Source of the DNA: a virus
DNA length: 25,541 nucleotides
IMG/VR virus record: IMGVR_UViG_3300041809_000118
Span: 1 to 25,541 of that record
Direction: 5' to 3' (one strand)
Part shown: one piece after another, positions 2,755-11,732 of the stretch
Layout: every line of letters begins with the position of its first letter
Numbering within the stretch: position 1 is the first letter of the stretch
Made by a program: the position numbers and the translations under genes
Notes under the pieces: model-generated
Database searches by the model: none
Seen by the model: only the letters and a program-made list of their open reading frames with translations
What the model was told of the DNA's origin: nothing

Positions 2755-2801
2755 ATAACTACGAGTCTCATTTTGAGACACGCTTAACTCTGCGTAGTTA
2801 T
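2755..2801. repeat. Nested inverted repeats after the third sigma gene
   Basis: Outer arms ATAACTACG (2755-2763) and CGTAGTTAT (2793-2801) are perfect 9-bp complements. Inside them GTCTCA (2765-2770) and TGAGAC (2774-2779) form a perfect 6-bp hairpin with a TTT loop. The outer arm starts in the stop codon of the leftward gene 2801-3469, and the strong promoter lies about 30 bp beyond the far arm. It could end the early leftward transcript, although there is no clear T-run, or act as an operator insulating the two operons. Confidence 0.6.
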
Positions 2802-3469
2802 TATGCTGCGCGTGGCAGGATCATCTCTCGTACATCGAACTTACCCGCTGGTGGGACGACGTAGCCCAGTGCGATCAACTCCGCGCGAAGTATCTCGATT
2901 GCCGCATTCAGGTACTTATAAGCAGTTACCCGGCTGACACTGAGGCACTTCGCAACGTCGGTCATGGTGATCGCAGTGAAACCTCCCAGCCCGTATGCGA
3001 GATTGATCGTCTTCCGTTGTGTGGCGGACAACTTCCTCAGTAGCTCCGCTATGACGCAGGCAAGCTCCTCGGAGGCCTTCTCCTCTTCTATGGAGATCAT
3101 CTCCGCTTCTGCGTTCACAGCATTAGGGTCGGCTATCAACTCATGCAGGGACACGGAACCGTCTTCGGTCTCAAGCGTCTCGTCCAGCGAAATGAGCTTG
3201 TCATCCGGAATGGTGGAGTCGTCTTGTTTGGCTGACCGTTGACTGCGCAGATTGTTCCTAAGTGATTCCGCGACATACGGCTCGGTGAGCTTCACATCAG
3301 GTGAGGAGTCGATAATCTCGACGAGTCTGAGGAAACAATCGCCTTCCGCTTCCTCTCGCGAATAGGTTGTGTTGCCCCAGGCTCTTGCGATGCGCTGTGC
3401 AACAGGCATGTAAGTGAGGATCAATGCTTCTCGCTCACTGTCTGAGCGGTGGGGAAGGTTGTTATTCAT
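2801..3469 (-). CDS. Sigma-70-like factor C
   Basis: Predicted RNA polymerase sigma-like protein (222 aa). Residues about 10-75 resemble region 2 (AREALILTYMPVAQRIAR-type helices; TYSREEAEGDCFLRLVEII). A long acidic linker with SLDET follows. About 140-200 are a region-4 HTH: LRKLSATQRKTINLAYGLGG, then MTDVAKCLSVSRVTAYKYLN. The linker is longer than in typical ECF factors and it lacks the FWTL motif shared by the two sigma-like proteins upstream, so it is a separate lineage. It is last in the leftward early operon, 52 bases after the small ORF. The N-terminal half is less conserved, so a region-4-only regulator is an alternative. Confidence 0.75.
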   Translation of the reverse strand: MNNNLPHRSDSEREALILTYMPVAQRIARAWGNTTYSREEAEGDCFLRLVEIIDSSPDVKLTEPYVAESLRNNLRSQRSAKQDDSTIPDDKLISLDETLETEDGSVSLHELIADPNAVNAEAEMISIEEEKASEELACVIAELLRKLSATQRKTINLAYGLGGFTAITMTDVAKCLSVSRVTAYKYLNAAIEILRAELIALGYVVPPAGKFDVREMILPRAA

Positions 3470-3521
3470 GCGATCTCTGGCCTTTCATCAGCCGTGAGCC
3501 GGTCGCGCCGGTCTAGGGTTA

Positions 3522-3722
3522 CTAAAAAGGGAGCTTCACGTCTCCGGCTCCGGGTAACATCGCGACGAACGCACGCAGCATGTCAATGCGATGACCTTGT
3601 CGGTCGAGTTCCTGCATTATCTCTGTACGAGCACTTGCTATCGCCTCCAGAATCGCCGCATTCTGACCTTTCAGTGCTTCAAGCTGCGACGGAGTAATCA
3701 GCCTCGGCTTCTCTGTCTTCAA
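3522..3722 (-). CDS. Small hypothetical protein overlapping sigma factor B (66 aa)
   Basis: The reading frame extends back to ATG 3794, but TTG 3722 is the better start: GGAGG (3733-3729) sits six bases ahead of it, inside the end of the upstream sigma gene. The 66-aa product begins KTEKPRLITPSQLEALKGQN and continues as one amphipathic helix (AAILEAIASARTEIMQELDR), ending with LPGAGDVKLPF. The 44-base overlap with the sigma gene suggests coupling. The helical, heptad-like pattern would suit a small partner protein such as an anti-sigma or adaptor, but nothing proves that. Confidence 0.5.
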   Translation of the reverse strand: MKTEKPRLITPSQLEALKGQNAAILEAIASARTEIMQELDRQGHRIDMLRAFVAMLPGAGDVKLPF

Positions 3723-4416
3723 GTTGGACCTCCAGTCCGGCACGCTTTGCCATTTGATTCCACTGCCACAGCTTGCGGCGGACGTTTGACTCATGCATAC
3801 CTATGCGCTTGCCTATCGCATAGCTGGTCGATCCCTCACGGAACATATCGAAGATCACCCGGTCTGTGTCGTCCAATAACTCACGAACCTGATCAAGCGC
3901 AGCGGTGATCCTGTCTGCTCGACTCCACCGCTTCTCACGCAACTCATCTTCGTCAGGGTTATGAGGCTGTACAACTGCTTCGCTCGATAGCTCCTCAATC
4001 GCATCCGGCCGCCACTCGTTAGCCTCGTCCCATGTTCCGAGTTGAGACAGGGGAATCTCCTTCGCCATTGCACGGTCACGCCTCATGTTCGCTACTCGAC
4101 GAGACACTAAGCCAGACAGCCAGCGCGTGAAGGATGAGTTACCCTTCCAGCACTTGTATCCGCTGTTCGCTCCGCTGTGCGCCGGATCGATCTTGACCTT
4201 GTCAAGGCTCTTGAATACTTGAATCAGACAGTCCTGCGTCAATTCTTCAATGTCATCCTGCGACACCATGCGATTCAATAGCTTGCCGATGTAATCCTGT
4301 GTGAGCGTCCAGAATGCATATTCGTCATGCTTCGGATCAGCGAACATCTTATTGAGGCGGAGAGAGACGTTGCTAAGTGCTACGGTAGATTCCTTATTGA
4401 ACTTCCCAACGTTCAT
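3679..4416 (-). CDS. ECF-like sigma factor B (tandem paralogue)
   Basis: Predicted sigma-70-family transcription factor (245 aa). Region 2 lies at about 20-120, with FWTLTQDYIGKLLNRMVSQD, DIEELTQDCLIQVFKSL and SFTRWLSGLVSRRVANMRRD, the classic region 2.1-2.4 pattern. Region 4 lies at about 170-230: AALDQVRELLDDTDRVIFDM, then SYAIGKRIGMHESNVRRKLW. I place the start at ATG 4416, which overlaps the stop of the preceding sigma gene as ATGA, rather than at the longer in-frame ATG 4461. Motif order and sequence match the upstream gene (DE-FWTL, D-HD/AH, IPLSQLG versus LPISQIG), so the pair arose by duplication. Confidence 0.85.
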   Translation of the reverse strand: MNVGKFNKESTVALSNVSLRLNKMFADPKHDEYAFWTLTQDYIGKLLNRMVSQDDIEELTQDCLIQVFKSLDKVKIDPAHSGANSGYKCWKGNSSFTRWLSGLVSRRVANMRRDRAMAKEIPLSQLGTWDEANEWRPDAIEELSSEAVVQPHNPDEDELREKRWSRADRITAALDQVRELLDDTDRVIFDMFREGSTSYAIGKRIGMHESNVRRKLWQWNQMAKRAGLEVQLEDREAEADYSVAA

Positions 4417-5231
4417 GTCGTCACCATCTTCCTCCACGCTGCGAGTCGCATACTCGGCCACGTGGGATTCCTGTTGCAGATGCGCGCGGCTTCAATTCTC
4501 GTGATCCCTTTGCTTAACAGGCCCAGGAGTTGCTGGTCCTTCTCGCTGAGTTGATCCCGAAGTCGCTCTAGTCTGGCGACCGCTGCTTTGTTCTTCTCGA
4601 TTCGAGCAGCCAGACGGCGCCACGTGCGGAGCTTTGTATACGGATCGTCCTCACCGATGCCCAGATGCTGGGCTATTTCATAACCACCGACGCCCTCGCG
4701 GTACAGATCGAAGATCCGTTGATCGTCGGCAGACAGTAGCTCTCGAAACGCATCTAGCGCGGCAGTGGTCGCATCCTCCTGCGCGAATCGCTCCTCATCT
4801 TCGACGAGTGCGGAGCTTTCCATGAACTGCGTGACTGCGGTGCTGTTCCGAAGGTACTCAAGCTCGATGCCGTGGAACTGTCCGTCACGGAAGCTGCCGA
4901 TCTGCGAGATGGGCAGCTCGCGGGCTCTCTTCTGTTCCCTGAGTAGGTCGAGTGCCTGACGCTTCGCCAAAGTCCGGAGCCAGCGGAGGAGGCTGGTATT
5001 GCCGTCTGGTTCGTCATGCCGAGGGTCCATCTGGAATCGAGCAAGCCCTTCGTATGTGACTATCAGAGTCCTTTGCACCACTTCGTCAAGATCATCTTCA
5101 CGCACGTATCGTGATGCAGTTCTCTCGATAGTCATCTTCGCCAGCGTCCAGAAGAGAAACTCATCTCGATTGCGGTTGTGGTAAGCGGCTGTTAAGCGGC
5201 TCGATAGACTCGGAGGATTGATGTCACACAT
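4413..5231 (-). CDS. ECF-like sigma factor A with an apparent extra region-4-like HTH
   Basis: Predicted sigma-70-family factor (272 aa). Region 2 lies at about 20-115: DEFLFWTLAKMTIERTASRY, DDLDEVVQRTLIVTYEGLAR and LLRWLRTLAKRQALDLLREQ. Region 4 lies at about 160-210: AFRELLSADDQRIFDLYREG, then GGYEIAQHLGIGEDDPYTKL. A second stretch at about 222-270 repeats the same design: RLRDQLSEKDQQLLGLLSKG, then ITRIEAARICNRNP and WPSMRLAAWRKM. A third HTH-like module is unusual for an ECF factor, which normally ends near 180 residues. The stop forms an ATGA overlap with factor B. The start ATG 5231 follows the HNH stop by nine bases and has only a weak ribosome site. Confidence 0.85.
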   Translation of the reverse strand: MCDINPPSLSSRLTAAYHNRNRDEFLFWTLAKMTIERTASRYVREDDLDEVVQRTLIVTYEGLARFQMDPRHDEPDGNTSLLRWLRTLAKRQALDLLREQKRARELPISQIGSFRDGQFHGIELEYLRNSTAVTQFMESSALVEDEERFAQEDATTAALDAFRELLSADDQRIFDLYREGVGGYEIAQHLGIGEDDPYTKLRTWRRLAARIEKNKAAVARLERLRDQLSEKDQQLLGLLSKGITRIEAARICNRNPTWPSMRLAAWRKMVTT

Positions 5232-5240
5232 AGATGCTCA

Positions 5241-5747
5241 CTAATTTGTGTATGTCTGGGCTGCGTATTCACCGAAGAGGCTCTGAGCGAGGACGTCTCG
5301 CGCCTTGGCAGCTTGCTCTATCGTGTCCTGGACCTTAGTGCGGAATTGCTTACCTAGTCGGGTCACGACTCCGATGAACTTGCCCGATGGCTTCCGCTTG
5401 ATCCCCGTGAAGCCGAATGCGTTGTGGCTCGACAAGTCTCGATTGGCGAGATTCTGACTACGAGACGCAACTCGTAGATTCTGCCTCGTGTTGTCCAGCG
5501 TGTCAGTGCGGCGCTTGTGATCCCCGTCCTGACCAAGCTGAGCGCCGGTCACGTCTCGGTGCATATAAGTGATTCCGTGCGGTGTTCCAGGCGTGCATCT
5601 GACGGCATACCAACGATTGCCGTTGAATAGGGCCTGCCACTTGAAACGGCTGAGCCGGTCGAAGTCCTGAACCGACACGAGTGCAATCTTGCCCTGTGTA
5701 AGGTCGATACGCTTCACGTCACTTGTCGTTGCTGGTAATAAAAGCAT
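5241..5747 (-). CDS. HNH endonuclease with AP2-like DNA-binding domain
   Basis: Homing-type DNA endonuclease common in phages. Near the N terminus is the usual LTQGKIALVSVQDFDRLSRF segment. The HNH core follows: MHRDVTGAQLGQDGDHKRRT, DTLDNTRQNLRVASRSQNLA. The C-terminal 60 residues (GFTGIKRKPSGKFIGVVTRL...) match the AP2-like beta-sheet module that gives sequence specificity. The frame is open back to 5918, but homologues of this type begin a few residues before LTQGK, and ATG 5747 has GGAGA about ten bases upstream, so I use that start (168 aa). It sits between the zinc-ribbon gene and the sigma cluster and may be a selfish insertion. Confidence 0.85.
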   Translation of the reverse strand: MLLLPATTSDVKRIDLTQGKIALVSVQDFDRLSRFKWQALFNGNRWYAVRCTPGTPHGITYMHRDVTGAQLGQDGDHKRRTDTLDNTRQNLRVASRSQNLANRDLSSHNAFGFTGIKRKPSGKFIGVVTRLGKQFRTKVQDTIEQAAKARDVLAQSLFGEYAAQTYTN

Positions 5748-5944
5748 GGGGTGTGTTTCTCCGTCCTGGATGGCTCCAGGACTGCTGGCGCTAGATATGC
5801 GCTCGGGGATTGTGGGTTTGCGGGTCGGAGTCCGGCGGAATGCGTCAACTCGCGGGTGGCGATCTGTAATGACTACGTCTAAGCTGTCTGTAATGCTTGC
5901 ATCAAAGTACTTCCACAACTGCCCAGGGTCAGGAGCTAATCCCG

Positions 5945-7150: not shown

Positions 7151-7316
7151 GAGATAGAGGGGAAGTAACCGGCGCTCTGTCCGACAGTGGACAAACAGCA
7201 ACCCATACTGCCCTGGCCGGTATCCTCTACCGGAAATAGCCTGCTTCCCCTTATTCTGCGGAGCAGGGACGGCAGCATAGATACAACCATACTTATACGT
7301 GCCGTTCCCTGAATCT

Positions 7317-7643
7317 ATGCCATTCGCACCTCTGCGACCCTGCAATGCCCATGGATGTCCAGCACTGACAGCCGATAGCTGGTGTCCGGCACATAAGCAG
7401 GATGATTGCCGCTTGAGCGCCGCTCGTCGCGGATACGGTCCACGCTGGAAGAAGTGGCGACTCTGGTTTCTACAGCGTCACCCAATATGCATCGACTGTG
7501 AAGCTCAAGGCCGGATCACAGTAGCGACAGAGCCGCATCACATTCGTAAGGTCAAAGATGCGCCCGATCTTCAATTCGTTGAATCGAACGTGCTGGCTCT
7601 CTGCAAGTCCTGCCACGCATCTAGGACGGCCAAGGGCGAGTAG
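7317..7643 (+). CDS. HNH endonuclease (terminase-associated type)
   Basis: Small nuclease of the kind found just upstream of terminase genes in HK97-like cos phages, where it helps the terminase cut genome ends. The C-terminal half has zinc knuckles C58-x2-C61 and C96-x2-C99 flanking H74-H75 and N91, with H100 following (HHIRK...ESNVLALCKSCH). The N-terminal part has three cysteines and a histidine (C14-ish NAHGC, WCPAHK), possibly a second metal site. GTG 7299 would add six residues; I use ATG 7317 (108 aa). Neither start has a clear ribosome site. It is the first rightward gene after the control region. Confidence 0.9.
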   Translation: MPFAPLRPCNAHGCPALTADSWCPAHKQDDCRLSAARRGYGPRWKKWRLWFLQRHPICIDCEAQGRITVATEPHHIRKVKDAPDLQFVESNVLALCKSCHASRTAKGE

Positions 7644-7651
7644 GAGTCGTG

Positions 7652-7849
7652 TTGAAGATCATCGTGACATCGGGAGCAGCCATCGTGCGTAACGGCGGCT
7701 TACGCTGTAACGCTCCGAGGATAGGCGACCCCGACCGGACGTGCAACAAACTCCTCGTCAAGCTCAACTCTGTTGGTCAGGTAGCAGGTGCGTTTATGTG
7801 TGACCGATGCCGCCGTATTGCCGTCGTCGAGCTGGTCCAGGAAAGCTAA
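7652..7849 (+). CDS. Com-like zinc-ribbon protein
   Basis: A 65-residue protein resembling Mu Com, the zinc-finger translational activator of the mom DNA-modification gene. The body reads C19-x11-C31-NKLLVK, then GAFMC50-DRC53-RRIAVVE, matching Com's CNKLL...CPRC core. The unusual point is the first knuckle: Com has CxxC, whereas here eleven residues (NAPRIGDPDRT) separate the cysteines. TTG 7652 is preferred over GTG 7649 because AGGAG (7642-7646) is then five bases away. It lies nine bases after the HNH stop and ahead of the ParB-like and glycosyltransferase genes. Similarity is by motif only, so regulation of the modification genes is an inference. Confidence 0.65.
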   Translation: MKIIVTSGAAIVRNGGLRCNAPRIGDPDRTCNKLLVKLNSVGQVAGAFMCDRCRRIAVVELVQES

Positions 7850-7941
7850 TGGCAAGTAGACAGGGAATAAGTCCAGCTAACCACCGTCAATCGATCCTGA
7901 GCGATCCTACTCGCAGGAATGACACTCTTACCGCTCTCTGA
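7849..7941 (+). CDS. Possible 30-aa micro-ORF coupled to the Com-like gene
   Basis: ATG 7849 overlaps the Com-like stop codon as TAATG, and AGGA lies about six bases upstream, so it has the signals of a coupled start. The product (MASRQGISPANHRQSILSDP and ten more residues) is basic and polar with no recognisable motif. It may be a real small protein, or its translation may only keep ribosomes moving toward the ParB-like gene. No homology can be claimed. Confidence 0.35.
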   Translation: MASRQGISPANHRQSILSDPTRRNDTLTAL

Positions 7942-7967
7942 TTGCAGTAGTGAGCAGAGATAGGGGT

Positions 7968-8108
7968 ATGGGAGTCAAATCCTTCGTTATACGACCGACG
8001 GGAGACCATCGCTCAGTCCTTTGCGCACACCCGCGGTTTGAACCCAGGGGATATTTAGACACTTATCGTGAAGCTCTCAGACCTCAAACCCGACACGAAG
8101 AACGCTAA
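7968..8108 (+). CDS. Possible 46-aa ORF overlapping the ParB-like gene
   Basis: An ATG-started frame beginning MGVKSFVIRPTGDHRSVLCA and running 41 bases past the GTG start of the ParB-like gene. Ribosome-site support is poor because AGGGG abuts the ATG. It fills the otherwise empty 7942-8067 gap. Its composition (GDHRSVLCAHPRFEPRGYLD) looks protein-like, but the evidence is only an open frame. If translated it would supply ribosomes to GTG 8068, which has a weak site of its own. Confidence 0.3.
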   Translation: MGVKSFVIRPTGDHRSVLCAHPRFEPRGYLDTYREALRPQTRHEER

Positions 8109-8751
8109 CCGAGGGACTATCCGGGGTAGGAAAGCGGTCTCCAAGAGCCTCCAGGAGTTCGGCGCTGGCCGGTCAGTCTTGATCGACCGTGACGGAGTTC
8201 TCATCGCTGGAAATAAGACGTTCACGGAAGCTCAGGCGGCGGGGATTGAGAACGTCATCGTCGTGCAGTCGGATGGCTCTCAGCTTGTAGCAGTCCAGCG
8301 GACTGATCTCTCCATCGATGACCCAAAAGCACGCGGACTCGCAATCGCTGACAACAGGGCAAGCGAAGTGGGTCTGGAGTGGGACCCCGGGATTCTCGAC
8401 GAGCTATCAACCGACCTCGAACTGAAACCATTCTTCACTGACGCAGAGCTTGACATAGCAACGGGGAAGTGCGAGCAGCCCACCAGCGCCGAAGCCGAAG
8501 CCGAATGGGCACGGATGGGGATGCCGGAAGCGCACAACATTGATGTGCAAGCCAGACAGATCACGCTGCACTTCCAGAGCGAAGAAGATGTGCAAGCCTT
8601 CGCCAAGGTGATCGGGCAGACCATTACAGACAAGACGAAGTACCTTTGGTATCCGGAACAGAAACCAATAGTCGCACGGAAGACAAAGTATGTTGAGCAA
8701 GACTCAACCGAGATTTCCGCTATTCATTCCGAGCCTGTCCCGATGGGATAG
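8068..8751 (+). CDS. ParB/sulfiredoxin-fold-like phage protein
   Basis: The N terminus (MKLSDLKPDTKNANRGTIRG, then SKSLQEFGAGRSVLIDRDGV, LIAGNKTFTEAQAAGI) has the order of a ParB nuclease-like domain: KL-DLKP, a charged loop, then the GN-T segment in place of DGHHR. The C-terminal part, ITLHFQSEEDVQAFAKVIGQ with ITDKTKYLWYP, is typical of phage members of this group. Many act as nucleases, adenylating enzymes or accessories of DNA-modification loci. The GTG start at 8068 follows an in-frame TAG at 8056, so it cannot start much earlier. Its last 62 bases overlap the glycosyltransferase gene, implying co-translation. Confidence 0.8.
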   Translation: MKLSDLKPDTKNANRGTIRGRKAVSKSLQEFGAGRSVLIDRDGVLIAGNKTFTEAQAAGIENVIVVQSDGSQLVAVQRTDLSIDDPKARGLAIADNRASEVGLEWDPGILDELSTDLELKPFFTDAELDIATGKCEQPTSAEAEAEWARMGMPEAHNIDVQARQITLHFQSEEDVQAFAKVIGQTITDKTKYLWYPEQKPIVARKTKYVEQDSTEISAIHSEPVPMG

Positions 8752-9568
8752 CCGCCTCACGATCAAAGCATTGCAGCGGATGGGCATTGAAGACTTCTAT
8801 GCAATCGTTGAGGAGCAGGAGTATCAGCAGTATGCAAGCGTAGTGCCAGCTAAGAACATTATCGTGCTCGATTCAAGCTATAAGAGGGACTACCAGACAC
8901 TTGATAACCTCGGACTGACGAAGAGCACCGGCCCAGGACCTGCACGCAACATGGCATGGGACATTGCTCAACAGATGGGTGCCGATTGGCACTGGGTGAT
9001 CGACGATAACATCGTCCAGTTCACGCGCTGGAATCACAACCTCCGATTCGAGGTCTTAAGTGGGGCTTACTTCCGAGTAATGGAAGACTTCTGCCTACGT
9101 TATACAAACATCGGCATGGCTGGACCTAACTACCGCGCGTTCCTGCCCAGGAAGTACAAGCGCCCTCCGTTCCTGCTCAATACACGTATCTATAGCTGCA
9201 ACTTGATCCGCAATGATCTCCCGTATCGCTGGCGTGGGCGCTACAACGAAGACACGATCCTCAGTCTCGACATGCTGAAAGATGGCTGGTGTACCTGCCA
9301 GTTTAATGCGTTCCAGCAAGACAAGATGGTTACTCAGTCAGTCAAGGGTGGCAACGACAAGGTCTTTTACAGCTTAGAGGGAACTTACCCCAAGTCGCTC
9401 ATGTTGGTGAATGAGTATCCGGAATACGCAAAGCTAGTGACGAAGTACGGTCGTGATCACCATTACGTCAATTGGACGCAGTTCCGCACACCACTAAAGC
9501 GCAACGAAGGCATCTCGATTGAGCCCAACGACTACGGAATGAAGATAACCCAGATTGAGAAGTCATAG
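8690..9568 (+). CDS. TET-associated-type glycosyltransferase (TAGT-like), probable DNA base glycosyltransferase
   Basis: A GT-A-fold enzyme of 292 aa that resembles the phage TAGT family, which attaches sugars to hydroxymethylated pyrimidines in DNA. Key features in order: beta-1 RFPLFIPSLSRWDSRLT; GPARN (A85-R86-N87); WHWVIDDNI with D105-D106-N107 as the probable metal/nucleotide-sugar site; RYNEDTILSLDML with E187-D188 as the likely catalytic acid pair. ATG 8690 has GGAAG seven bases upstream and must be near the true start because beta-1 begins at residue 8, so the 62-base overlap with the ParB-like gene is real. Its stop abuts the small terminase start. No TET/JBP oxygenase or hydroxymethylase is visible in the window. 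Glycosylation of a host target is an alternative. Confidence 0.8.
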   Translation: MLSKTQPRFPLFIPSLSRWDSRLTIKALQRMGIEDFYAIVEEQEYQQYASVVPAKNIIVLDSSYKRDYQTLDNLGLTKSTGPGPARNMAWDIAQQMGADWHWVIDDNIVQFTRWNHNLRFEVLSGAYFRVMEDFCLRYTNIGMAGPNYRAFLPRKYKRPPFLLNTRIYSCNLIRNDLPYRWRGRYNEDTILSLDMLKDGWCTCQFNAFQQDKMVTQSVKGGNDKVFYSLEGTYPKSLMLVNEYPEYAKLVTKYGRDHHYVNWTQFRTPLKRNEGISIEPNDYGMKITQIEKS

Positions 9569-10153
9569 ATGGCAGGACGCAGACCCAAGCCGACCGCACT
9601 AAAGGAACTCACCGGCAATCCAGGGAAGCGTGCTCTTAACAAGAACGAGCCAAAGCCCGGTGGAGTTCCGACCTGTCCGGCTGCACTCGACGCAACTGGA
9701 AAGCGCGAATGGTCGCGCGTCAGCCGCGAGCTGATTGCCGTAGGACTTCTCACCAGTGTTGACCGTGCCATGTTGGCTGCGTATTGCGACTCTTGGTCAC
9801 GCTGGTCTCAAGCGACTAAAGAGCTTCAAGCTCTGCGAGTCGCCAAAGGCAAGTCAGTCCTGGTCGTCGGCACCAAGACTGGCTACCCGATGCAGAACCC
9901 ATTGATCGGCATTATCAACACCGCAGCAGACCAGATGAGGAAGTTCGGCGTCGAGCTTGGACTCTCGCCATCCAGTCGCACACGTCTTGCAGTCGAGCCA
10001 GCAGGGGATCAAAAGGATCCGTTCGCTGAGTTCATGCGGGAGATAGGCGGCGATGAGGTCAGTGGGTCAATAGATGACGAAGCCCGAGAGATATATACAG
10101 CAAGTGCTGACCGGGGAACAGTTGACCTCGAGGTGGGTACGGTTAGCGATTGA
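9569..10153 (+). CDS. terS: Terminase small subunit, P27 family
   Basis: DNA-recognition subunit of the packaging motor. The N terminus GRRPKPTALKELTGNPGKRA is the signature of the P27 family, followed by a helical domain (ATGKREWSRVSRELIAVGLL; DRAMLAAYCDSWSRWSQATK). The protein ends in an acidic, likely disordered tail. The ATG directly follows the TAG of the glycosyltransferase gene. The last 80 bases overlap the large subunit gene in another frame. Confidence 0.95.
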   Translation: MAGRRPKPTALKELTGNPGKRALNKNEPKPGGVPTCPAALDATGKREWSRVSRELIAVGLLTSVDRAMLAAYCDSWSRWSQATKELQALRVAKGKSVLVVGTKTGYPMQNPLIGIINTAADQMRKFGVELGLSPSSRTRLAVEPAGDQKDPFAEFMREIGGDEVSGSIDDEAREIYTASADRGTVDLEVGTVSD

Positions 10154-11732
10154 GCGCCACGCTAACGACTTAGAAGAGGGACCGGCACGAGGATTAAGAT
10201 TCAACCCCGCTCGTGGTCTCAGAGTCATTCAGTTTATTGAGCGGTTCATCTGCGGCGTTGAAGGCGAGTATGACGGCAAGCCGTTCCTCCTGGAGCCCTG
10301 GGACGCTGCTCTGCTTTATATCTTGTACGGATGGCATTTTGATGACGGCCGGCGCCGATTCAAGTATGCGTACTGTGAGATCGGCAGAGGAAACCTCAAG
10401 AGCACTTTAGCGAGTGCGCTTTGCATCTATGAGCTAATCTCCGAGCGCGGCGCGAACGTCTTCTCAGCAGCGACGGATCGTGCAACAGCCAAGGTCGTAT
10501 TCGATACAGCCGCACTGATGGTGAGCAAGTCGCCGTCTCTGCGGAAGCGAATCAAGTCGTATCGGAACAATCTGCACATCGTTGGAACGGCAGCGAAGTT
10601 CGAGCCGTGCTCAGCGGAAGGCAAGACGCTCTTTGCTCACAGTCGTCCGTCCTTCGTCGTCCTGGATGAGCTACATGCTCACGCGACTGACGAAGTATGG
10701 AACGCATTCGTATCCACCCTGGGCAAGCGTAAGAACTCAATGCTGTTCGCAATCACGAACAGCGGATATGACAGGAACTCGGTCTGCTGGAAGCAACGCG
10801 AATACTCGATCAAGGTTCTGCAAGGTGCTGTCCCAGACGATACGTGGTTCTCCTGGATATGCGGACTCGACGACGAGGACATTAAGCATTGGGAAGACGA
10901 GCGCAATTGGGTCAAAGCTAATCCATCGCTCGGCGTCGCTGTCAGCTTGGATGACATGAGAGCGCAAGCTCTCAAGGCGAAGGAAGACCCTTCGGCACTT
11001 AATCAGTTCCTGCGCTTCCGGCTATCAGTCTGGACTGAATCACACAGCGTATGGATGCCGATGCCGCAGTGGGACCTATGCAATGAGGTGGTCGATCCTG
11101 AGGCACTCAAAGGTCGTCCGTGCTTTGCTGGCATGGACTTGAGCACGACGGTAGACATCTCCGCTGTCGTGCTCCTTTTTCCTCCATTCGGCGACGACAA
11201 GATGTGGCGCACGATCCCGTTCTTCTTTCTGCCAAAAGATAACATCACGAAGCGCTGCAAGAAGGATCGCGTTCCGTATGACATCTGGGAACGTCAGGGA
11301 CTCTTTCATCTGACCGAGGGTAACGTCATCGACTATGACGTGATCCGCGCAACGATCAACGAGCTGGCGGCAACGTACAAGATCATCGAAGTCGCATTCG
11401 ACCCGTACATGGCTCCGCAGATTGTCACGCAGTTACAGAGTGACGGCCTGACAGTCGTTCCATTCCGCCAGGGCGACATATCGATGACCGCGCCCTTGAA
11501 GAGACTAATGGAGCTTGTACTCCGCCAAGAGTTAGCACATGGCGGCAACCCAGTCCTCAAGTGGATGGCCGGTAACACGGTGGTCAAGATTGGCGCTACT
11601 GGGTTGATGAAACCGGACAAAGAGAGAAGTAGGGAGAAGATAGACGGCGTTAGCGCGCTGCTTGATGCACTCGGACGAGCGATGGTCGTTTCCATCGAAC
11701 AAGCTCCCACGTTCGAGCCGTTCTTTATATAG
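10074..11732 (+). CDS. terL: Terminase large subunit
   Basis: Packaging ATPase and nuclease (552 aa). The ATPase domain has Walker A GRGNLKST (G104-T111), where the glycine normally preceding the lysine is Leu108. Walker B is SFVVLDELH (D198, E199), and a coupling motif AITNSG follows. The RNase H-like nuclease has D355 (AGMDLST), D443 (VAFDPY) and D524 (KIDGVSALLD). The start ATG 10074 lies inside terS; residues just after it (RYIQQVLTGEQLTSRWVRLA) fit the usual TerL N terminus, so the overlap is genuine. The final codons carry AGGAAGAG, which may serve the portal gene. Confidence 0.95.
   Translation: MTKPERYIQQVLTGEQLTSRWVRLAIERHANDLEEGPARGLRFNPARGLRVIQFIERFICGVEGEYDGKPFLLEPWDAALLYILYGWHFDDGRRRFKYAYCEIGRGNLKSTLASALCIYELISERGANVFSAATDRATAKVVFDTAALMVSKSPSLRKRIKSYRNNLHIVGTAAKFEPCSAEGKTLFAHSRPSFVVLDELHAHATDEVWNAFVSTLGKRKNSMLFAITNSGYDRNSVCWKQREYSIKVLQGAVPDDTWFSWICGLDDEDIKHWEDERNWVKANPSLGVAVSLDDMRAQALKAKEDPSALNQFLRFRLSVWTESHSVWMPMPQWDLCNEVVDPEALKGRPCFAGMDLSTTVDISAVVLLFPPFGDDKMWRTIPFFFLPKDNITKRCKKDRVPYDIWERQGLFHLTEGNVIDYDVIRATINELAATYKIIEVAFDPYMAPQIVTQLQSDGLTVVPFRQGDISMTAPLKRLMELVLRQELAHGGNPVLKWMAGNTVVKIGATGLMKPDKERSREKIDGVSALLDALGRAMVVSIEQAPTFEPFFI

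Follow-up and report, generated by a model that had tools for sequence, protein, structure and literature searches.

Why would a temperate phage keep a sugar transferase gene directly in front of its packaging genes, and to what would the sugar be attached? The locus that raises this question lies in the IMG/VR virus record IMGVR_UViG_3300041809_000118, a linear fragment of an incomplete genome, which we analysed over its whole length of 25,541 bases (the window) and which runs from an integrase gene on the left to tail genes on the right. An earlier note, made from the letters alone, had placed a DNA-modification cassette beside the packaging genes here; our searches support the proposal, and the comparison of the same position in relatives strengthens it. 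With moderate confidence we read the locus as a cassette of two genes by which a temperate phage would glycosylate its DNA: a ParB-like protein with a previously undescribed C-terminal domain, here called TCD (TAGT-companion domain), partners a glycosyltransferase of the TAGT family, and the acceptor would arise neither through a TET oxygenase nor through a hydroxymethylase of the T-even type. The DNA of the window phage is predicted to be hypermodified.

The TAGT glycosyltransferase and its companion domain

The two genes comprise the following features.

8068-8751, plus strand: ParB-like open reading frame (ORF), GTG start
8068-8460, plus strand: N-terminal domain of predicted ParB/sulfiredoxin fold (PHROG 620, E 3e-21; PHROG 498, E 9e-17)
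8494-8718, plus strand: TCD, about 75 amino acids, at the C-terminus of the ParB-like protein
8678-8682, plus strand: GGAAG, Shine-Dalgarno-like by direct reading, 7 nt ahead of the TAGT ATG
8690-8751, plus strand: overlap of the ParB-like and TAGT genes, 62 bp
8690-9568, plus strand: TAGT glycosyltransferase gene, 292 amino acids
9002-9010, plus strand: DDN motif (residues 105-107), putative nucleotide-sugar/metal site by inference from GT-A enzymes
9248-9253, plus strand: ED motif (residues 187-188), inside W-R-G-R-Y-N-E-D

By its profile match, the window glycosyltransferase belongs to the TAGT family. The ORF at 8690-9568 scores 142.1 bits against PF20691, for which the cut-off is 27.5 (E 2.9e-41, and 1.8e-43 in a second search), and covers that profile whole (positions 1-205 of 205), bearing out the TAGT-like assignment made earlier; it also matches PHROG 842 (E 9e-45). 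The DDN and ED motifs, whose positions had been read correctly, are 100% conserved across 123 TAGT sequences. For the TAGT part of a fusion homologue (L112), AlphaFold2 predicts a GT-A fold, mostly with a predicted local distance difference test (pLDDT) value above 90; the input alignment of this model had ParB rows misplaced onto the TAGT region, and only the high-confidence TAGT part was used. Among the homologues, tandem TAGT pairs in L085 (9953-11868) and in Vibrio phage Kuja (L163:1245-3933) suggest glycosylation in two steps, a single ORF in L051 (1901-4234) joins TAGT to a helicase-like ATPase domain according to motifs read by eye, and the TAGT gene of Vibrio phage henriette 12B8 (L168, NC_021073, 21370-22143) has no annotated feature in the public record.

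The partner protein ends in an extra domain that the earlier reading overlooked. The conserved pattern of TCD is W..MPEF....i.vhF....v..Fa.liGq.it.kTksiWyP; no Pfam family matches it above cut-off, and PHROG 22103, a family of unknown function, matches 4 of 55 members. To define its distribution, we surveyed the TAGT genes of 80 viral contigs, 46 bacterial-genome contigs, the window and three further contigs, leaving out seven loci without upstream room and two truncated TAGT fragments without a TCD (L126, L127). TCD accompanies every one of the 122 intact TAGT genes with enough upstream sequence, a count that does not represent independent events because the loci share ancestry. It forms the C-terminus of an upstream ParB protein for 90 of these genes, lies in an upstream ORF without a recognised ParB domain, mostly of 70-150 amino acids, for 21, is fused to the TAGT N-terminus without ParB for 8, and joins ParB and TAGT in one ORF in a single case (L112), the remaining 2 being mixed arrangements. 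ParB as the invariant partner of TAGT was a view that we refined on these grounds, only TCD being recognised upstream at the 21 loci and no ParB being present in the 8 fusions. Where TCD and TAGT are separately encoded, 94 of 111 pairs overlap and 8 more lie within 20 nt of each other.

In the reverse direction, viral contigs were queried with the consensus TCD sequence, independently of TAGT. A TAGT gene adjoins TCD in 78 of 80 loci and in one more (L295) by tblastn (52% identity), which amounts to 79 of the 79 testable loci, the contig of L257 ending too soon. TCD occurs in 19 of 50,697 phage records and all 19 are TAGT records; in the cultured phages Aeh1, 65, POP12, PTm1, Kuja, Vibrio 1.076 and Vibrio 1.124 it is fused to TAGT. 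The contigs bearing the pair were assigned to Acidobacteriota, Bacteroidota, Pseudomonadota and other groups, and chance linkage is disfavoured because the pair is spread over viruses and over many bacterial groups. Given the mosaicism of phage genomes and the frequency of overlapping genes, ParB and TAGT could in principle be uncoupled neighbours; however, we find this barely credible in view of the complete linkage in viruses and prophages with assignments to many bacterial groups, the equally complete reverse linkage and the single-ORF fusion. At five loci (L054, L060, L064, L065, L257) an S-adenosylmethionine (SAM) methyltransferase of about 270-280 amino acids is inserted between ParB-TCD and TAGT, recognised as Methyltransf_12 in L065, and may methylate the sugar or the base; in L003 (6861-7817) an N6/N4 DNA methyltransferase lies between TAGT and the terminase small subunit gene.

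The N-terminal domain of the partner has a ParB/sulfiredoxin-like fold as judged from profile matches and a structural model. Pfam does not recognise the ORF at 8068-8751; the PHROG 620 match and the fold neighbours of the AlphaFold2 model (mean pLDDT 88) confirm the ParB-like call made earlier. Nearly all top PDB matches of the model are ParB, Noc, sulfiredoxin and serine-kinase chains, with modest E-values (0.02-1).

A slot shared with DNA-modifying enzymes

Around the two genes the window holds the following neighbours.

7299-7643, plus strand: HNH endonuclease (PF01844 above cut-off), which bounds the slot on its upstream side in the nearest relatives
7649-7849, plus strand: Com-like zinc-ribbon ORF, GTG start at 7649
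9569-10153, plus strand: terminase small subunit TerS (PF05119, E 2e-26)
10074-11732, plus strand: terminase large subunit TerL (PF20441, E 2e-48; PF03354, E 6e-22)

The ATG of terS begins at 9569, right after the TAGT stop, which ends at 9568; the ORF coordinates thus agree with the 62-bp overlap and the abutting stop described earlier, and both terminase subunits are confirmed by Pfam. An HNH endonuclease also precedes ParB in L002, L003, L004, L006, L132 and L138.

To obtain insight into what else occupies this position, we collected the nearest ParB domains independently of TAGT (80 loci, up to 80% identical to that of the window). In 37 loci the partner is a DNA methyltransferase (32 are fusions, 3 are fusions to a different enzyme of SPPY type identified by reading, and 2 are adjacent genes). 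An ABC-ATPase/GNAT protein (PHROG 11143) takes this place in 23 loci, TAGT in 10 and Mom in 6, and the last 4 partners are unclassified. The next genes are TerS and TerL in 4 of the 6 Mom loci and in 18 of the 23 ABC-GNAT loci. The order of the window, HNH-ParB-X-TerS-TerL, recurs with an ABC-GNAT protein as X in L132, a fused N6/N4 methyltransferase in L134 and Mom (PF25680, E 1e-43) in L138. A DNA-modifying enzyme is the usual occupant of the slot in which the window has TAGT, and DNA is supported as the TAGT substrate because the same ParB otherwise partners DNA methyltransferases, Mom and ABC-GNAT proteins. The ABC-ATPase/GNAT fusion, found at L132:5454-6614 and in 22 further ParB loci, has no assigned function in PHROG 11143 and is, from its domains and neighbours, a candidate DNA-modifying enzyme of a new type.

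The closest known parallel is provided by phage fusions of ParB to N6_N4_Mtase: the ParB of L134 is about 64% identical to that of the window and occupies the same HNH-ParB-TerS-TerL slot, whereas the window enzyme is a glycosyltransferase, is separately encoded and is linked through TCD. A survey of ParB folds (PNAS 2025, PMC12704722) reported ParB-methyltransferase fusions and mentioned no glycosyltransferases. Furthermore, distant TAGT clades also follow an overlapping ParB gene (L180, L212, the human gut phage L330 and the Porphyromonas gingivalis prophage L331), with a ParB C-terminal region that differs from TCD; in L331, TerS and TerL come after TAGT. From this we infer that ParB may be the common part and the C-terminal region an enzyme-specific adaptor. 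In L330 a radical SAM protein (PF04055, 13941-14903) directly follows the ParB-TAGT pair and possibly makes an unusual acceptor or a further modification.

A second alternative is that TAGT glycosylates a protein, whether capsid, terminase, ParB itself or a host protein, and that its location reflects glycosylation of virion proteins. This would fit the best PDB fold neighbour, a collagen hydroxylysine galactosyltransferase, the lack of a detected enzyme making a DNA acceptor, and the position of TAGT in Vibrio phage 1.076 between portal and head-morphogenesis genes. We nevertheless consider it quite unlikely, given that DNA methyltransferases and Mom are among the other partners of this ParB domain, frequently at the same position, that the characterised T-even member of the family acts on DNA (PMC13216743), and that PTm1 and phage 65 carry the gene at a distance from structural genes.

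The likeness to the Com-Mom system of phage Mu is that six loci have Mom as X after this ParB and that a Com-like zinc ribbon is found upstream in the window; it differs in that the window has no Mom and the Mom relatives sampled have no Com-like ORF. The Com-like ORF starts at 7649 (GTG), against 7652 in the earlier reading, and ends 218 bp before ParB; no mom was found in the window. It matches no Com family of Pfam or NCBIfam and PHROG gpCom only weakly (E 0.026), and shares 41% identity with Mu Com over 27 zinc-knuckle residues, with a Smith-Waterman score of 54 against 21 +/- 4 in 2000 shuffles. The resemblance noted earlier is, on this comparison of sequences, genuine and beyond chance, but short. 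Its assignment to the system did not stand: among about 130 TAGT genes examined, only those of the window and L004 have a Com-like ORF, and Com was rejected as a component of the module. The ORF probably lies outside the module, and to see Com paired with a glycosyltransferase is an oddity of local extent.

Elsewhere in the window, three adjacent minus-strand genes (2801-3469, 3679-4461 and 4413-5231, two of them overlapping) show weak sigma-70-like regions, and such a run of sigma-like genes (2801-5231) is unusual for a small temperate phage. An HNH endonuclease-like ORF (PHROG 99, 5241-5918, minus strand) is unrelated to the HNH endonuclease at 7299-7643.

The source of the acceptor base

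The characterised enzyme of PF20691 is a T-even DNA glycosyltransferase (PMC13216743). The T2/T6 beta-glucosyl-HMC-alpha-glucosyltransferase shares the full-length PF20691 match with the window enzyme, and PHROG 842 bears its name. In contrast to the window enzyme, however, it lacks TCD, is not found by a profile of TCD-type TAGTs even at E 10, and sits with the gp42 hydroxymethylase, whereas the partner here is ParB-TCD and no hydroxymethylase accompanies it; moreover, it acts on an already glucosylated base (PMC13216743). The T6 enzyme was rejected as a guide to the substrate, being too distant and without TCD.

A TET/JBP oxygenase was sought with PF12851 in 40 TAGT records, in 30 further ones (eight cultured phages and seven whole bacterial genomes among them) and in six records of other TAGT clades. 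No match reached the cut-off in the 70 TAGT-linked records or in the six others, which contradicts the earlier claim that such loci usually carry a TET/JBP oxygenase. The sole sub-threshold match, in G030, is partial (14.8 bits). The TET protein of Mycobacteriophage Nigel, used as a positive control, was itself below the curated cut-off (28 bits, E 4e-8), and as a query it found no relative in 32 TAGT records. That a TET was overlooked through a weak profile was rejected, Nigel TET being seen at E 4e-8 and the TAGT records giving nothing comparable. None was recognised among the scanned genes of the window, a fragment from which the rest of the genome is absent.

Similarly, no homologue of the T6 gp42 hydroxymethylase was found in 20 TAGT records including those of Aeh1 and 65, with T6 as the positive control; several large phages gave thymidylate-synthase-like matches, none of them gp42-like at the search threshold, and gene 42 is not listed for Aeh1 and 65 (Petrov et al., Table 4, PMC2993671). 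The TAGT of the Acidobacteriaceae KBS 96 prophage shares 67% identity with the window enzyme; of the 36 proteins predicted for this prophage, none matches a Pfam oxygenase or methyltransferase. A Pantoea/Erwinia-type prophage encodes Dam and a C5 cytosine methyltransferase, and has no TET. The KBS 96 prophage starts with a resolvase-like recombinase gene beside a comM/yifB-like gene (L082:973-3658, by reading of the sequence), which is possibly its attachment site.

These searches bear on the conventional TAGT pathway, in which a hydroxymethylpyrimidine acceptor would come from a TET-like oxygenase or a hydroxymethylase encoded in the unsequenced part or by the host, or too diverged for the profiles. 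The family is named for its association with TET, the T6 TAGT is encoded beside gp42, the missing part of the window genome could hold an oxygenase, the weak G030 match may point the same way, and G011, G035 and Vibrio phage 1.124 encode C5 cytosine methyltransferases. On the other side stand the failure to find TET in TAGT records under conditions in which the Nigel control is detected, the lack of gp42 homologues with T6 as control, and the absence of any such enzyme from the KBS 96 prophage, apparently complete from its recombinase through to its tail genes. We therefore regard the conventional pathway as unlikely. The acceptor is most likely either an ordinary base glycosylated directly or a base prepared by an unrecognised enzyme.

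A possible mechanism and its meaning

In the cassette that we favour, TAGT, as a GT-A enzyme, would use its DDN/ED site to move the sugar of a host nucleotide-sugar onto a base in the phage DNA. The ParB-fold domain would engage the DNA and TCD would act as a small adaptor that binds or positions TAGT. If ParB-TCD and TAGT are made together with the terminase, the DNA would be glycosylated just before packaging, and the modification could shield it from restriction in the next host. A more specific version, which we hold only tentatively, is that TAGT and ParB-TCD glycosylate a canonical base in one step and bypass a hydroxymethyl intermediate, for example by attaching the sugar to the exocyclic amine of adenine or cytosine.

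The pair might instead be an exclusion device that marks host or superinfecting DNA during lysogeny and not the DNA of the phage itself. Prophages in isolates retain the pair (L082, L084, L087, L091), and a role in conflicts, as nucleases or NTPases, has been suggested for ParB-type domains of phages (PMC5512222). Yet the window genes run head to tail with terS and terL, suggesting late rather than lysogenic expression, and the T4-like phages Aeh1 and 65 keep TCD-TAGT, which makes a device of this kind very improbable.

Several points weigh against a DNA-glycosylation cassette. To our knowledge, all known cases of phage DNA glycosylation by this enzyme class need a hydroxymethylated base, and no recognised enzyme in the TAGT-linked records searched makes one. 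T4 relatives without the gene 42 network probably have no major deoxycytidine monophosphate modification (PMC2993671). The best PDB fold neighbours of the TAGT model are collagen galactosyltransferase and heparosan synthase, whose substrates are protein and sugar. An arginine in Box II (the P-motif) was needed for nucleoside triphosphate (NTP) binding in the ParB-fold proteins tested (PMC12704722); by alignment, Box II of the window ParB reads AGNKT, with no arginine, against AGHxR in many TAGT-partner ParBs, and an NTP switch or cytidine triphosphate clamp is doubtful for it because this arginine is missing. In addition, we found no biochemical or nucleoside data in the literature for any TCD-type TAGT, the window spans only 25.5 kb of its genome, and the relatives are mostly incomplete as well.

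The TAGT family reportedly goes back to Iyer et al. 2013, and the prediction that TAGT modifies DNA is already known and not new. The enzymes of the Aeromonas phages Aeh1 and 65 are 46-50% identical to the window TAGT and have TCD fused N-terminally; they differ in belonging to T4-like phages and in forming one TCD-TAGT polypeptide with no ParB domain. Their glycosyltransferase was described as one that "presumably, modifies DNA" at an "unknown base" (PMC8056088, citing Iyer et al. 2013). Our literature search found no discussion of TAGT together with ParB, and Iyer et al. 2013 may mention ParB neighbours; TCD, its near-invariant link to TAGT and the shared slot appear undescribed. A 2026 paper found TAGT homologues and neither T4 glucosyltransferase in 288 of 753 phage genomes and regarded these genomes as potential sources of novel transferases (PMC13216743).

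A large subfamily of solitary TAGTs thus gains a near-invariant partner domain that is unnamed in the profile libraries searched, and a second partner, ParB, that is common to other DNA-modifying enzymes. The puzzle is one of sugar transferases without a detected enzyme to make their acceptor. If the acceptor is an unmodified base, the reaction would add a new chemistry to those that modify DNA and might serve to label DNA. Moreover, if the one-step version is true, the ParB-X slot would act as a socket into which different enzymes that modify a base in one step can be exchanged (N6/N4 methyltransferase, Mom, ABC-GNAT protein and TAGT), with a small adaptor domain matched to each enzyme.

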